Below, one piece after another: positions 6,157 through 62,772 of a DNA stretch of 64,000 bases. Numbering within the stretch: the first letter of the stretch is position 1; the number at the start of each line of letters is the position of its first letter. The notes beneath the pieces were generated by a model. That model was not told the origin of the DNA. It searched no databases and was given only the letters and a program-made list of their open reading frames with translations. Source of the stretch: a virus. The translations under genes were made by a program, and so were the position numbers. The DNA lies in IMG/VR virus record IMGVR_UViG_3300008117_008517, positions 62,001 to 126,000 of that record; one strand, given 5' to 3'.

Positions 6157-9100
6157 TTATTCAAGTGTTTCGAAATTTAAAAAATCAAAATCAAGACCTT
6201 TATTCTGATCTATCAATTTCTGAACTTCGTCTCTATCTAAATCTCTTCTGATTGTACCATCTGGAAGTTTCACTTCATAAATAAAATCATATGAGTCACC
6301 AGTTGGTGCATTAGCTCCTCCAGTGCCTTTTAGTAGATCCTCGGTTGTTGCTGTAGGACTCACTACACTTAGATTACTATCTGAATACAAACCATTTAGT
6401 AGATCTCTTAGATCTTTTGGTTCAACATTTTCAGGTATTTTGTTACATAGTTTAATAAGTGGTGGAGGAATAACTGCGGTTATTCCCAAAATAGACCAAA
6501 TCAACATTATAAATGAATTTATGATTCTTTCAATTAAACAAAGTATTACTGTAAATAGTCTAAATGGTTTAAGACATAGATCTCTATATTGTTTGGCCGT
6601 ATATACTGGTAACTTTACCCAGAATGACACACTCAAAAACTCGTTCAAATCAGCAATTACATAATCATCTGGTATTAGATACTCAGAAGTAAATGGACCG
6701 GTACCTCTTATAGGGTTTTTAACATTTACTGCTATACACCACTCTATTATTTTTTCTGGGTTAAATTTGATGCCCGCAATTTCAAGAAGACCTTTCGGTG
6801 TAAAGAATGTCATGATCCATTTAAAAGATAAAAATTCAGCAATTAATGCCGGGAACTTGACTGGATTTACCAATTTTTTGAAGAAATCCATTATCCACTG
6901 AATTATACTAAATATTACTTTTAATGGAAAAGTAACTAAGCCTAGAATTAATTTTAAAAGTGGCTGAGAAAGTAAGTTGAATTGATTTTTAAGTGCCTTT
7001 ATTTTATCAAGTAGTGATTTCTTTAGAGCACTATTATCATTTTCATCTAGTGAATTATAAGCCTCTTGATATTTTTCTATAGCAAGTTGATAGTTGTCAA
7101 GTGGATTTCTTGCATTTTCATTGAAATCTATTTCAGATCCTTGATTTATAAGTTCATCACCTTCTCTAATTAACTTATCGACTGATTGATTAATGTAGAT
7201 GTATTCATAATCTATACCTTCTATTTTTCTACCAGTAGAATAAGTAATGCTTACTTCTTCATAATATTCTCTTTTTCCATTTTTAGAGACTACTTTATTT
7301 TTGGTAACCTCATCTGGTTTTGTGATATCTAAATACCTCAAAACTTTTTCATCAATTTCAGCTTGATTTTTACCATCTGTTATCTCTTTATCTTGACCTT
7401 CGAGTCCATTTTTGATATTATCTGGATTGTTTTTATCTTGTTGAAATTGTTTGAGTAGAGAATCTAAGTTTCCAGATGGTAAATTTGATGAGAAAATAGG
7501 CCTTATTGGAACACCACCATTGAACGCTTTAGATATATTTAATTCTAGTCCGAATAAAAGACTGAAAAATCCAATCAGACCGGGTCCATCTATTAAGAAC
7601 TTAAATTCAGCTTCTCTATTAACATGAATATAATTTGCTAATTTTGTTCTTTTAACATATTTTTTCATTTCATCAACAAGATCTCTCTTTTCTTTCTGAA
7701 GATCAGTGAAACTTTGATTCGCTTCTTTTTCACCTTTTCTTATCTTGTCTTTTATTTTGTCAACTCTTTGTTTAAAATTAACAATATCGGTCATTATCTT
7801 CGTGACATCTGGATTAAAAATCAGAAGCTTATCTTCAAGTTTTGATTTAATTATTTCAGTAACAAAAGAAGCCGGATTTTTAATCAACTTAATTAACTTA
7901 GTAATAGCTGGAAATAATTTTGCGCCTAAATCTACTATTAATTCAATCATTATTTTTGCAATTCCTAGAGCATCTCTTATTTTATAATATCCGCCTCCGC
8001 CGCCACCTGAACCGCCACCACTACCTTTTGAACCAGCACCTCCAACTCCACCAGTATCAGGACCAGTTTCTATATTTTTATTTTTTCTTATGCCTTCAAT
8101 TATATAATAGACATCAACATCAAGCTCTGTGACCTGTTGTCTTCTTAAATACCCGAAACTCTGTGGATTGTCAGGTTCAACTATTTGAACTCCATTATCA
8201 TCTAAAACCGGAGCACCGTTTGGTTGAGTACAAGGACCACCTTGATAACCACTACCATATCTACCCGAGGACATAGAAACATTAGCAAGTCCTAATTCTT
8301 TTAATCTTTCATTCAATATATTTTGACCACCGTAATCATCAACTAACACAGTTTTATATTTTCTGTCACCATCAAATACTGAAATTTGAAATTTAGTTAA
8401 ATCAACAGTTGTCAAATTTATACCGTAATTGCTAGTCGAAGTACTATCATCGATTCTGTTTATCTCTGAACTTGATAAATTGCCCGTTCTTATTTCAATT
8501 ATGTTAGATTTGAAAAGTGGTGGTAATAATTTTGTATTAAATTGACTATACTGTCCAGTTCCAACAGTTGTGTTTCCACCTAGATTTTCGTTAAAGAAAA
8601 CAATTTTATCAATAAGACCCGAAACCAGTCTTAGTTTCCACTTAATACCACCACCAATATCAAATGTCTCATACGGTCCCTCTTCTTCATTAGTTTGTGT
8701 TGATGGTCTAACACCTCTTGTGTAAGTTTTAATCTGAGTTTTTGCCTGTTCAAATTTTGCAACTGCCTCATCAAGTATAGATATAAATTCAGGTGTATAT
8801 ACCGAGTAGCTAGCTGGTACGAATAAGGTTGAAAAATCAATAGTGTTGATAAGTTCGAGAGATTCTCTCAATAAATTTGGTTCAGAAGCGTATTGAGTGT
8901 AATAATAATAATCCACTTCTTGATATTGTATATCATTATTAGCGATCTCTTCAAGTTTAAACGCCAAATCATAATCGTACTCTACTTTAGATGGGTAATC
9001 GTATGTAATTGATGTATCATCTGCGTATCTAAGAAAAATAATTGATCTAAGTTTTACACCGGTGTTATTTAATTCATCATTTGTAAATAACTTTTCTCTC

Positions 9101-24454: not shown

Positions 24455-25642
24455 ATGGATAAAATCTATATCAAATCTTTAATTCAGAATGTTTTAAATA
24501 AAGAATTCTCTAATCCAAATAAGAGGAGAATAGATGAGTATGCTGATAGATTAAACTATTCTTGTCCATACTGCGGTGATTCATCTAAAAGTGTTCATAA
24601 GAAAAGAGGTAATTTATACTTTAATAAACTCTTTTATATCTGTTTTAACTGTGATAAAAAGACTACTTTTGATAAATTCGCAAAAGACTTTAATGAGGTT
24701 TTAGATCCTCAGAAAAAACTTGAAATTATAGAATATCTAGATTCCGTTATTGATTATTCAGACTATGACACTGATTTTGGAGATTTCCAACTCGATGATC
24801 TTTATGATATTAGTCAACTTGAAGAATTATTCAATGTTAAAGATATAACTCCAATATTTGACTTTAAACCAATCGATGAAAGATCAGGAGTTTATAAGTA
24901 TCTACTAGGTAGAGGAATTGTTAAACCACTTCAGAAAGATATTTACCAGGCAAAATTCTCAAAAGGTGATGAAGGATACGAACACGTTATCATACTTTTA
25001 AATAAAAGAGGTGATAAAGTCTTAGGACTACAGGTAAGAAACTTAAAAGAAGGCCGAAGAAGATTCTTTGTAATATACAACTGGGAGTCAATTCATAAGT
25101 GGATTTGGGGAGAAGAAAAAGAAGTAGATATTCAAAAATCAATTATCTATAATAAGTTATCTTATTACTTTAATATTTTAAATATTAATTTTGAAGAAAA
25201 GATAACTATTTTTGAAGGTTATATCGATTCATTATTCTATCCGAATTCTGTTGGTGTTGTTGGGGTTAATACCGATTTAAGGTTTTTAGAAAATAACAAC
25301 TTAGATATTCAATATTTCTTTGATAATGATACGGCAGGTTATAATAAGTCAGAAGAAAAGATAAGGGAAGGTGGTAAAGTTTTTCTATGGAAAAAACTCT
25401 TTGAAGACATTGTTTCAAAGAAAAAGACTGATGATCCTCATAAATTACTTTACAGAATATCTAAAGTAAAGGACTTAAATAAACTTAATGAATTAGTTCC
25501 CTTTGCTTACAAAAAACTCGAACTCGGCAATTTCTTTTCAGAAGATTTATTTGATTTAAAATATCTACCAAAGAATACTATAAGAAAAAAAACCAAACCT
25601 GAAAAAGATTATTTAAGAGAGTTTCGTCAAAATGACTTCTAA
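24455..25642 (+). CDS. DNA primase, T4 gp61/DnaG type (395 aa)
   Basis: Makes RNA primers for lagging-strand synthesis. Seen: an N-terminal zinc ribbon with Cys37-x-x-Cys40 and Cys63-x-x-Cys66 (His48 may also bind); a central catalytic region; and a Toprim fold with the acidic glutamate in ITIFEGYIDS near 250 and the DxD in QYFFDNDTAG near 290. Length is near T4 gp61 (342 aa). No helicase domain is fused, so a separate replicative helicase must exist outside the window. It lies tail to tail with the HNH gene (four shared bases). Confidence 0.88.
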   Translation: MDKIYIKSLIQNVLNKEFSNPNKRRIDEYADRLNYSCPYCGDSSKSVHKKRGNLYFNKLFYICFNCDKKTTFDKFAKDFNEVLDPQKKLEIIEYLDSVIDYSDYDTDFGDFQLDDLYDISQLEELFNVKDITPIFDFKPIDERSGVYKYLLGRGIVKPLQKDIYQAKFSKGDEGYEHVIILLNKRGDKVLGLQVRNLKEGRRRFFVIYNWESIHKWIWGEEKEVDIQKSIIYNKLSYYFNILNINFEEKITIFEGYIDSLFYPNSVGVVGVNTDLRFLENNNLDIQYFFDNDTAGYNKSEEKIREGGKVFLWKKLFEDIVSKKKTDDPHKLLYRISKVKDLNKLNELVPFAYKKLELGNFFSEDLFDLKYLPKNTIRKKTKPEKDYLREFRQNDF

Positions 25643-26103
25643 AAATACTTTGTAGTATTATTTGGATTTTTAATTTTTAAATAGTCGTAAAAGTTTAAAT
25701 TCCCTCTTTCATTGTTACAATCGAAACAACAAACTATTAAATTGACCTGTGAGTTGTTGCCTCCTTCAGAAATGGGTATTATGTGATCTGTAGTTGCATT
25801 TGACTCATTCAATTTACAACCACAATAAATGCATTTTGCCTTTTTATTTTCCTGTAAAAACTCTTTTGCGAAACCACTTGTTCTTCTTTTAACATTCTTG
25901 CCGTTCCACTTTAGGCCAACCACAACAATATTCTCTAGAAACTTATATTTTTTTCTATAGATTTTACAAGGTACATAATTTTTATTAGACCAAATAGCGA
26001 GCTTAACTAATAGACCCCATCTTTTCCACACCTTTTTATCAACTGAAATAAAATGTTGATGCTCTGCTTCTCTTATAAATTTGATAACTTCTACTATATT
26101 CAT
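25639..26103 (-). CDS. HNH endonuclease (154 aa)
   Basis: Seen in the C-terminal half: CIYCG at 91-95, catalytic TTDHIIPISEGG (His107) at 104-115, asparagine in QVNLIVCC near 121, and a second zinc pair closing in CNNERGN. This is a classical zinc-supported HNH fold. The N-terminal 90 residues are basic and may bind DNA. Free-standing HNH genes in T4-like phages are often homing endonucleases that spread between genomes; there is no intron here and the neighbouring primase is intact. A TATATAT element lies 29 bases upstream. Confidence 0.85.
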   Translation of the reverse strand: MNIVEVIKFIREAEHQHFISVDKKVWKRWGLLVKLAIWSNKNYVPCKIYRKKYKFLENIVVVGLKWNGKNVKRRTSGFAKEFLQENKKAKCIYCGCKLNESNATTDHIIPISEGGNNSQVNLIVCCFDCNNERGNLNFYDYLKIKNPNNTTKYF

Positions 26104-26148: not shown

Positions 26149-26175
26149 GATACCCCCTAAAATTTAGGGGGTATC
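26149..26175 (-). terminator. strong hairpin terminator
   Basis: Thirteen-base stem GATACCCCCTAAA/TTTAGGGGGTATC around a single base. On the minus strand it is followed by TTGTTTTAG. It lies 24 bases past the stop of the secreted beta-propeller-like gene. Confidence 0.8.
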
Positions 26176-29847: not shown

Positions 29848-31202
29848 TTACTTCATTCCGGAAAATATATCTAAAACCACACTAAGTCTTTTTGTAATCT
29901 CAGGAAGACCAAGTGGATCTATAATAGAATTAATTGGAGATAAAATTGACTTCATAAACTGCTCGTCATAATCAATTTCTGGTGCAAATTCTATAGGATA
30001 GGAACCCCTAATAAAAGCAAACATATCATTTGTCTTTTTATTCTTACAATAATAGTATTTGATCTTAGTTCCTGACTTAATGAATTCGTACTTTGATTGT
30101 AATAACTTATTCTGATTTAAAAGATAGTTATGATAAGCTGCAGATTTAACAGCAAAGTGGGCACCACTAACAAATTCCAATCTATCTTTATCTTCTAAAA
30201 CTTTGGTTTCATAATTAGAACAAGATGACTGCATCGAAATATCATCGATATCTGCAAGTTCAAATTCTTTTCTAAGATTTTTAACTAATTTTAGTAGGTC
30301 TTTGATATTAAAGTCATCTGGATGGGCAAAAAGATATTTTACAATTTCAACAATCTTTTCACGGGCAAATGCCGGTGTAGAAGAACGAACAAGCTCAACA
30401 CCTTTAGGAAAGATATAAGTTAGTCTATCATAAGGAATACCATCTTCATATACAATATGCTGAATATAATCTCCATACCTAAGTGCGTCTATACCATGTA
30501 TGAAATCTAATTCATTATCCCAATTCCACTGTATTTCTATATCCTTAATTAAATCCTGAATATCTTTTGAATTAAATGACCGGTCTTTAACAAAATACCC
30601 ATCGATAATAATTAATTCCGGATTAGTATTAGTTATAAAATCTTTAAAATCATTTACGTTCTTAAAGTGACCAATACAATTACTATTAGTAATTTTAGAT
30701 TCTTGTCTTTTTTCTAGAAATACAAACCTCTGATTTAAAGAATTCATCTTTGACAGTGGAAGATTCCTCCATTCACAATGTTGAATTGCTGGTTCAAAAG
30801 ATACAAATAATGAATCCGTATCTGCATAGATTGATACTTCATCACCGTCTTTTTTGGATAAAGAAGTGACATTCTTCACTCCAAGTTTAGAATGTAGTTC
30901 AAAATCTAGATGCCATTGTTCATACCAATACTTTTCATTTACAGCATTCATAGTTTTAGTCAAGTCTCTGCCTTGCGCTGTTATAGTACCGGCGACGTGT
31001 TGATTAAACAGTATGAAATATTGCGTAGCAAATGCTCCGTAACTTCCATTTAATATTAATTTTAAAGCATTTTCCCCTCTGTCAAAAAACAGAGGGGTTA
31101 TCGAGCCAACTGAAGAGCGTTGTAATAATCAGATTCTCTCTTCAGTTGGTTGGCTTTAATTTTTAGTGACTCGATTTTTTTTAATTTATCTTCTCTCGTC
31201 AT
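29848..31202 (-). CDS. 43: family B DNA polymerase, C-terminal part, frame interrupted by a putative bypass element
   Basis: C-terminal half of a T4 gp43-type replicative polymerase (palm, motifs B and C, thumb). Frame 1 runs from ATG 31202 for 34 codons to TAA 31098 and ends in DYYNALQLAR. Frame 2, open through 29848, continues with LKLILNGSYGAFA (motif B) and YADTDSLF (motif C). Joining Ala33 (GCT 31106-31104) to the codon after GCT 31068-31066 gives YYNALQLA-LKLILNGSYG, the expected polymerase sequence, in a protein of 438 aa. The first ordinary start in frame 2 (TTG 30963) lies behind motif B, and the only nearby ATG reads ATG CTT TAA, so re-initiation would lose the active site. An in-frame TAA directly precedes ATG 31202, and the clamp gene lies upstream, so the exonuclease/N-terminal half must be encoded elsewhere. 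Confidence 0.85.
31066..31106 (-). promoter_or_regulatory. putative translational bypass element (GCT take-off to GCT landing)
   Basis: On the mRNA: GCU (take-off, 31106-31104), CGA, UAA, hairpin, AAAAU, GCU (landing, 31068-31066), then UUA. Thirty-eight nucleotides would be untranslated, landing codon included, which is not a multiple of three. T4 gene 60 has the same plan: matched GGA codons, a stop after take-off, a hairpin in a 50-nt gap. Here one codon (CGA) lies between take-off and stop, which differs from T4. Confidence 0.6.
31074..31097 (-). repeat. hairpin B inside the polymerase insert
   Basis: Perfect eight-base stem CCCCTCTG/CAGAGGGG with loop TTTTTTGA, starting on the base after the UAA. 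No U tract follows (AAAAU does), so it is not a terminator. It makes up most of the insert. Confidence 0.85.
31106..31149 (-). repeat. hairpin A just upstream of the take-off codon
   Basis: Perfect twelve-base inverted repeat CCAACTGAAGAG/CTCTTCAGTTGG with a 20-base loop, wholly inside coding sequence. Its 3' arm ends on the first base of the putative take-off GCU. It could position or stall the ribosome, as the structures around the T4 gene 60 take-off site do. Confidence 0.75.
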
Positions 31203-61984: not shown

Positions 61985-62772
61985 TCTTTTTGATTTCTAA
62001 GATAATTTTTAATATTTTCTAGATCATCTTTAGTCAGATTATCAATCGTATGCTTTATACTAAATTTCAACTCTTCTTCTTTTAACTTGTCTTCTATTTT
62101 AGCTTCTTGTCTCTCTGATTCCGTTAAAGGAGAAACTGATTTTATTAGTTTTCTAATTTCTTTAACACTCGGAGTATTAAAGTCTCCAGATTTTGGAATT
62201 TCTCTAACAACTGGAATTTCTGATTTAAATTCAGAAATCTCTTCCTCAGAAAAGTTTTTGACAATAGATAGAATTCTCCAGTCAAGCTTTTCTTTATTTT
62301 CTCTGATAAAGTCTATAGAAAGATCATTCGCACTAATTAGATTCCAAAGTTTGAATTTTTCTATAATACTTTTATAGATTGAAATGTTAGATATTTTATC
62401 AGAAGAGCTTAAGTATAGAATCATTCTCTCCCAATTAATCCATTCTTCATACTCTTTTATAAAATCTTCCGATAGATTTGAGTATGTCAACATGTTTAAG
62501 TCAGATATATCTTCTAAAGTAAAGTACTCCAAGGTTATGCCAGATTTAATAAAGTCCTCAGAAAGAGATAACATAGTAATTACTATTTCTTTATCTATGC
62601 CTTCAAAATCTTCACTTTCTGGTCCCCATTTTAAAAGAAATGATTCTGGTATTTCATATTCTCTAAGTACCTCTATCGCTCCTTCTTCTTTAATTTTTTC
62701 GAGTAGTTGAAATTCAGTTAGCTCTACTTCAGAGTTTGAAACTTCTTTATTTACAATTTTAACTTTTTTCAT
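61981..62772 (-). CDS. hypothetical protein with LSxDFI repeats (263 aa)
   Basis: Residues 70-200 contain three or four helical repeats with the core LS-x-DFI...L/I-x-W (LSEDFIKSG, LSEDFIKEYEEWINW, LSIDFIRENKEKLDW). Similar short helical repeats are seen in large DNA viruses and large phages, of unknown role. N- and C-termini are charged and helical. Nine bases after the terminase gene on the same strand, so probably co-transcribed with it. Confidence 0.65.
   Translation of the reverse strand: MKKVKIVNKEVSNSEVELTEFQLLEKIKEEGAIEVLREYEIPESFLLKWGPESEDFEGIDKEIVITMLSLSEDFIKSGITLEYFTLEDISDLNMLTYSNLSEDFIKEYEEWINWERMILYLSSSDKISNISIYKSIIEKFKLWNLISANDLSIDFIRENKEKLDWRILSIVKNFSEEEISEFKSEIPVVREIPKSGDFNTPSVKEIRKLIKSVSPLTESERQEAKIEDKLKEEELKFSIKHTIDNLTKDDLENIKNYLRNQKD

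Follow-up and report, generated by a model that had tools for sequence, protein, structure and literature searches.

Short inserts at motif B of a split viral DNA polymerase gene, probably passed over by translating ribosomes

A 64,000-nucleotide stretch of viral DNA (the window; positions 62,001 to 126,000 of the 172,576-bp IMG/VR record IMGVR_UViG_3300008117_008517) contains the C-terminal gene of a huge phage's split family-B DNA polymerase, which is interrupted by a 38-nucleotide (nt) insert at polymerase motif B. The insert disrupts the frame, and inserts of this kind occur in no fewer than 30 distinct related genes, often next to a homing endonuclease. Ribosomes therefore most likely jump them, and translational bypass is the best explanation for the insert family, one that we consider probable. 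Comparison of relatives establishes an insert family with codon-exact placement, covariation in an RNA helix (S1), a set placement of stop codons, selection on the downstream open reading frame (ORF2), patchy inheritance and linkage to an endonuclease-like gene. A preliminary description of the window had proposed a ribosome hop; the codons, the stops, S1, the ratio of nonsynonymous to synonymous substitution rates (dN/dS) and the endonuclease neighbour support that interpretation, by comparison rather than by experiment. Its account of the window was sound, and it overlooked the split of the polymerase, the insert family, the homing context and a 111-bp deletion in the window's own copy.

The locus was checked on the minus strand, where the coordinates of the frame stop at TAA before motif B and of the out-of-frame resumption proved correct. 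ORF1 encodes a lysine-rich peptide, and the polymerase frame resumes at 31065, one codon ahead of the motif-B lysine. A hairpin-bearing insert does lie between two GCT codons (31106-31104 and 31068-31066), whose joining yields NALQLA-LKLILNGSYG, the same sequence as in insert-free relatives. The 12-bp inverted repeat described upstream (31149-31138 with 31117-31106) is exact. The features are listed below; take-off and landing codons are those at which a ribosome would leave and rejoin the message, and S0, S1 and S2 are RNA helices.

29848..31202, minus strand: C-terminal (43B-like) gene of a split family-B DNA polymerase, insert-interrupted
31202-31200, minus strand: ATG start
31098..31202, minus strand: ORF1, 34 codons MTREDKLKKIESLKIKANQLKRESDYYNALQLAR, then TAA
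31165..31172, minus strand: GAGTCACT, the S0 helix 5' strand in L-type relatives (defined below)
31138..31149, minus strand: S1 helix 5' arm CCAACTGAAGAG, from folding and covariation
31106..31117, minus strand: S1 helix 3' arm CTCTTCAGTTGG, its end lying within the take-off codon, from folding and covariation
31104..31106, minus strand: take-off codon GCT (Ala)
31103-31101, minus strand: CGA codon between take-off GCT and TAA
31098..31100, minus strand: in-frame stop TAA, second codon past take-off
31066..31103, minus strand: 38-nt insert relative to insert-free homologues, its boundary ambiguous over the repeated GCT
31074..31097, minus strand: predicted S2 hairpin CCCCTCTGTT-TTTT-GACAGAGGGG in the gap, 6 nt past take-off (arms 31097-31088 and 31083-31074), from folding
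31066..31068, minus strand: landing codon GCT (Ala)
29848..31065, minus strand: ORF2, resumed frame LKLILNGSYG..., with motif B and motif C (YADTDSLF), to the stop; resumed-frame sequence ALKLILNGSYGAFATQYF, 31065 to 29848

Relatives were gathered by protein scans and DNA-pattern scans of viral contigs, together with four huge-phage records, giving 51 distinct loci after removal of duplicates; these loci need not represent as many independent events. Motif-B inserts are present in 30 of the 51 and absent from 21, and the alignment proposed as a check on the window's 38 nt identifies these as an insertion. Assembly error, named in advance as a possible refutation, is ruled out by the near-identical copy L012, an independent record that is identical across the window's insert region, and by the differing inserts of the relatives. 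The inserts are 36-48 nt long and their lengths leave every remainder on division by three, so that the gap length of 2 mod 3, put forward as a feature of the window, is not one. They occupy three placements, each at a codon boundary (phase 0). Site 1, the window's position or one codon on, accounts for 21 of the 30 loci and comprises the A-type placement after an Ala codon (the window, L031, L032, L062 and L079) and the L-type placement after Leu, one codon further (16 loci). Site 2, between NGSY and GAF, accounts for the other nine. In most inserts the 6 nt after the take-off codon close with a stop, and a C-rich/G-rich hairpin comes next. No relatives were confirmed in cellular genomes. A protein-level scan of six genomes (~1.85 Mb) found no comparable inserts outside polymerase motif B, and C4/G4 hairpins elsewhere in them interrupted no shared protein.

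Stops and codons are placed with regularity around the gap. A stop (TAA, TAG or TGA) falls one or two codons past take-off in 27 of 30 inserts, against a mean of 3.5 in shuffled gaps, and in L050 and L051 it comes one codon earlier than usual. The stop described as lying just after take-off therefore holds to within two codons for these 27 inserts, although in the window it is the second codon and not the adjacent one. The 5' geometry fixed the take-off codons, and the triplet ahead of resumed homology was taken as the landing codon. So defined, the landing codon is synonymous with the take-off codon at all 21 site-1 loci, the pairs being GCT/GCT (3, including the window), GCT/GCA (2), CTT/CTA (15) and CTG/CTA (1); CTA occupies the Leu position in 16/16 L-type genes versus 5/30 genes without a site-1 insert. 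The matching of take-off and landing codons noted for the window extends in this way across site 1 and is found at only one of the nine site-2 loci, where TAT or TAC is paired with AAC (3), TAA (2), or CAA, AGC, GAC or TAC (1 each). The sole related phage found with abundant transfer RNAs (tRNAs), LR745206 (634,780 bp), has tRNA-Leu anticodons UAG, UAA and CAA and no GAG; among its own tRNAs, UAG would therefore be expected to read both CUU and CUA. Its large tRNA array (L119-L123) also includes some predicted tRNAs whose anticodon loops are unusual (gtag, gt).

Folding predicts S1 as a long helix that extends as far as the take-off codon, and S2 as a hairpin in the gap. Genes with a site-1 insert form 11.3 of the 14 S1 pairs, compared with 6.2 for insert-free genes and 5.6 for site-2 genes, and S1 is missing from the folds of the nine site-2 loci. 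The S1 arms pair better with their own partners than with swapped ones in all 20,000 permutations, an effect not seen in insert-free genes. In a 16-sequence alignment, five S1 pairs have changed on both sides, and 0 of 500 shuffles reach any of the observed measures. Extension of S1 through the take-off codon and spacer finds no support from arm swapping. Poor alignment of the gap kept S2 out of the covariation counts. In many L-type loci folding suggests a further helix, S0, in which an upstream AGUCAUU-like segment pairs with an AAUGACU-like segment at the landing site; in fixed register it is not significant (p 0.10). The word GAGTC is shared by the majority of genes with a site-1 insert; the insert-free genes shown all lack it. 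A search of Rfam gave no family match at or above the gathering score.

The interrupted gene belongs to a replicative polymerase, as had been proposed, although it is not the single gene then supposed. A profile search matches the window gene to PF00136 (E 2.9e-13), and L012 matches phrog_262, DNA polymerase (E 8e-48). Membership of family B is indicated by PF00136, by motifs B and C in the C part and by motif A in the distant N part of relatives. Because this N-terminal half (~500 aa, motif A DFASLYP) is a separate, distant gene in relatives, the polymerase is, from its sequences, naturally split, with the insert near the start of the C-terminal gene. No polymerase exonuclease domain was found on the window's record, and a Protein Data Bank (PDB) sequence search with the polymerase profile gave no match. 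In the window, 111 bp that include the conserved KKKY are missing in frame at 30461-30465 (minus strand) relative to L012, through natural deletion or an assembly artefact. Because this conserved polymerase sequence is absent, the window's gene as assembled may be non-functional, though the family is functional. Separately, L014, L015, L070-L072 and similar loci carry intein-like insertions at motif C (DTDS) of the same polymerase gene, which is therefore a hotspot for selfish elements.

The downstream coding sequence is under strong purifying selection as judged by dN/dS, which is 0.03-0.13 past the insert in the computable pairs, both members of which bear inserts. Each of six genomes searched holds one copy of the C part. 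The frame of the C part has a stop in the last codon ahead of the resume point at 10 of 30 loci. Its first in-frame ATG, GTG or TTG usually lies inside or past motif B (in the window, a TTG 34 codons past the resume point), and no consistent second-frame start that retains motif B occurs among the 30 loci. Taken together, the selection, the single copy, the stops before the resume point and the late start mean that a functional product very probably needs ORF1 and ORF2 to be joined. Frameshifting and stop readthrough are ruled out by insert lengths of all values mod 3. Re-initiation is disfavoured by these inconsistent and late starts; as the preliminary description held, it would remove motif B, the motif-B lysine usually being lost.

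The inserts have the patchy spread and co-converted flanks of a homing cassette. On the tree of the downstream protein, insert state has to change 16 times, at least 11 of these changes being forced by well-supported branches, which is about the number obtained with shuffled labels. Near-identical genes differ in state, L031 (A-type) from L044 (site 2) and L028 (no insert) from L033 (site 2), and in both pairs the 5' module has been replaced and the downstream part is well conserved. About 100 nt upstream of the polymerase start codon lies a divergently oriented gene, which matches PF24308 (DUF7487) as well as PHROG families that carry the annotation homing endonuclease (E 3.5e-13). Such a gene lies directly upstream in 16/30 insert-bearing versus 0/21 insert-free loci (Fisher p 2.8e-5), and its subtypes partly track the insertion site; none adjoins the window's own copy. 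The insert-free loci L006 and L008 have genes of remote similarity to the endonuclease elsewhere, at +1418/+1424 and about -6740/-7184. At 25639-26103, ~4 kb past the polymerase gene in the downstream direction, the window itself contains an HNH-endonuclease-like ORF; a C5/G5 hairpin lies just upstream of this ORF, near 26153-26171. Elsewhere in the window, 82 nt at about 7826-7908, within a 1700-aa ORF, are missing from the near-identical record G005.

In the mechanism that we propose, small mobile inserts would home into motif B with an upstream homing endonuclease, or be protected against it, the endonuclease presumably cutting insert-free motif B, and would be neutralised through programmed translational bypass. 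A ribosome on ORF1 would stall at take-off, on an Ala codon in the window and on a Leu codon in most relatives, facing the stop and S2. The peptidyl-tRNA would then release, and S1 and S2 would refold behind and around the ribosome and move it forward. The tRNA would re-pair with a synonymous codon just ahead of the motif-B lysine region, and decoding in the polymerase frame would resume. The hop itself and the role of each helix we infer from the comparisons described above.

Several observations weigh against programmed bypass. Eight of the nine site-2 loci lack a Tyr codon directly ahead of the resume point, L082 alone having TAC there. Three inserts (L067, L044 and L082) have no early stop, and the stop is usually the second codon past take-off, whereas gene 60 of phage T4 has it at the first. 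S0 has only moderate support in free register (permutation p 0.011) and pairs weakly in the A-type copy of the window itself. Several site-2 loci carry an exon-exon helix, GCUCC/GGAGC, that flanks the gap and suits RNA excision.

The main rival is removal at the RNA level, suggested by the unmatched codons of site 2 and by its helices, which would bring the gap ends together as S0 and S1 would at site 1. A structured intron of 36-48 nt would be cut out by a phage or host endonuclease with RNA ligase, or by a ribozyme. Aeromonas phage 25 has a homing endonuclease with its split gene 43 (PMC2988022). A group I intron is also reported in that gene. Excision is nonetheless unlikely: the inserts are far below the size of group I or II introns, have no Rfam match at gathering score and share no conserved splice-site motif among the three placements, and excision would leave unexplained the synonymous codons at 21/21 site-1 loci, the phase-0 placement everywhere and the selected in-frame stop. 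A new class of ~40-nt mobile elements removed from the product without codon re-pairing, either by structure-directed unmatched landing (site 2) or as mRNA introns well below the size of any group I or II intron, is possible but less likely than not. It is very improbable that no joining takes place and that the ORF1 peptide and ORF2 protein, made apart, assemble with the N-terminal half into a three-piece polymerase; the polymerase is already two genes and split gp43 is functional in Aeromonas phages (PMC2988022), yet the start codons and pre-resume stops described above oppose it and a separate ORF2 would usually lack the motif-B lysine. Inactivation of the gene (a pseudogene or sequencing error in a phage with a dead or replaced polymerase) would accord with the 111 bp missing from the window copy and is the most improbable of all, given 30 distinct inserts from many metagenomes, the low downstream dN/dS, the single C-part copy per searched genome and the absence of a family-A polymerase from seven relatives, some of them only fragments.

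Known systems share parts of this arrangement. T4 gene 60 encodes the C-terminal part of a topoisomerase whose gene has been split by a homing endonuclease; within gene 60 a 50-nt gap after codon 46 is bypassed between matched GGA codons, with a stop after take-off and stem-loops 5' of and at take-off (PMC5009743, PMC11194080, PMC2988022). The polymerase system resembles gene 60 and mobA: a replication gene is split, its C-terminal fragment is interrupted close to the 5' end by a short non-coding gap, take-off is followed by a stop and has stem-loops both 5' of it and around it, and the gene has a linked homing endonuclease. The polymerase system differs from gene 60 in affecting a DNA polymerase rather than a topoisomerase, and in its 36-48-nt inserts, usual second-codon stop, strong C/G hairpin 6 nt past take-off, three placements, Ala, Leu or Tyr take-off, many members and unmatched site 2; its endonuclease departs from T4 mobA in its DUF7487-type repeats and divergent orientation. 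Bypassed elements (byps) in Magnusiomyces capitatus mitochondria occupy 81 positions in 12 genes, some without perfectly matched codons (PMC5009743). The polymerase inserts resemble them as many short inserts, apparently neutralised in translation and in some cases without matched codons, and differ in occurring only at motif B in the six scanned genomes and in their elaborate upstream RNA structure. Aeromonas phages 44RR and 25 have a split gene 43 with a seg-like endonuclease (PMC2988022), and resemble the present case in that a free-standing homing endonuclease has invaded a split family-B polymerase close to the C-terminal cistron. The polymerase insert, at ~40 nt, has no intron architecture, unlike the gene 43 of phage 25, in which Petrov et al. 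reportedly described a self-splicing group I intron in 2010.

No report of this polymerase insert element was found in the literature searched, coverage of which was partial. To our knowledge, T4 gene 60 is almost the sole well-studied efficient ribosome bypass in a phage. If the bypass is real, what was an isolated case would become a comparative system of at least 30 natural inserts in an essential polymerase, in which insert-free sister genes serve as controls and the three placements offer different take-off codons; natural variation would then show which helices, stops and codon pairs are required. It would also suggest that homing endonucleases repeatedly recruit bypassable inserts for protection, and that essential phage genes bearing such inserts are cut short by gene callers.
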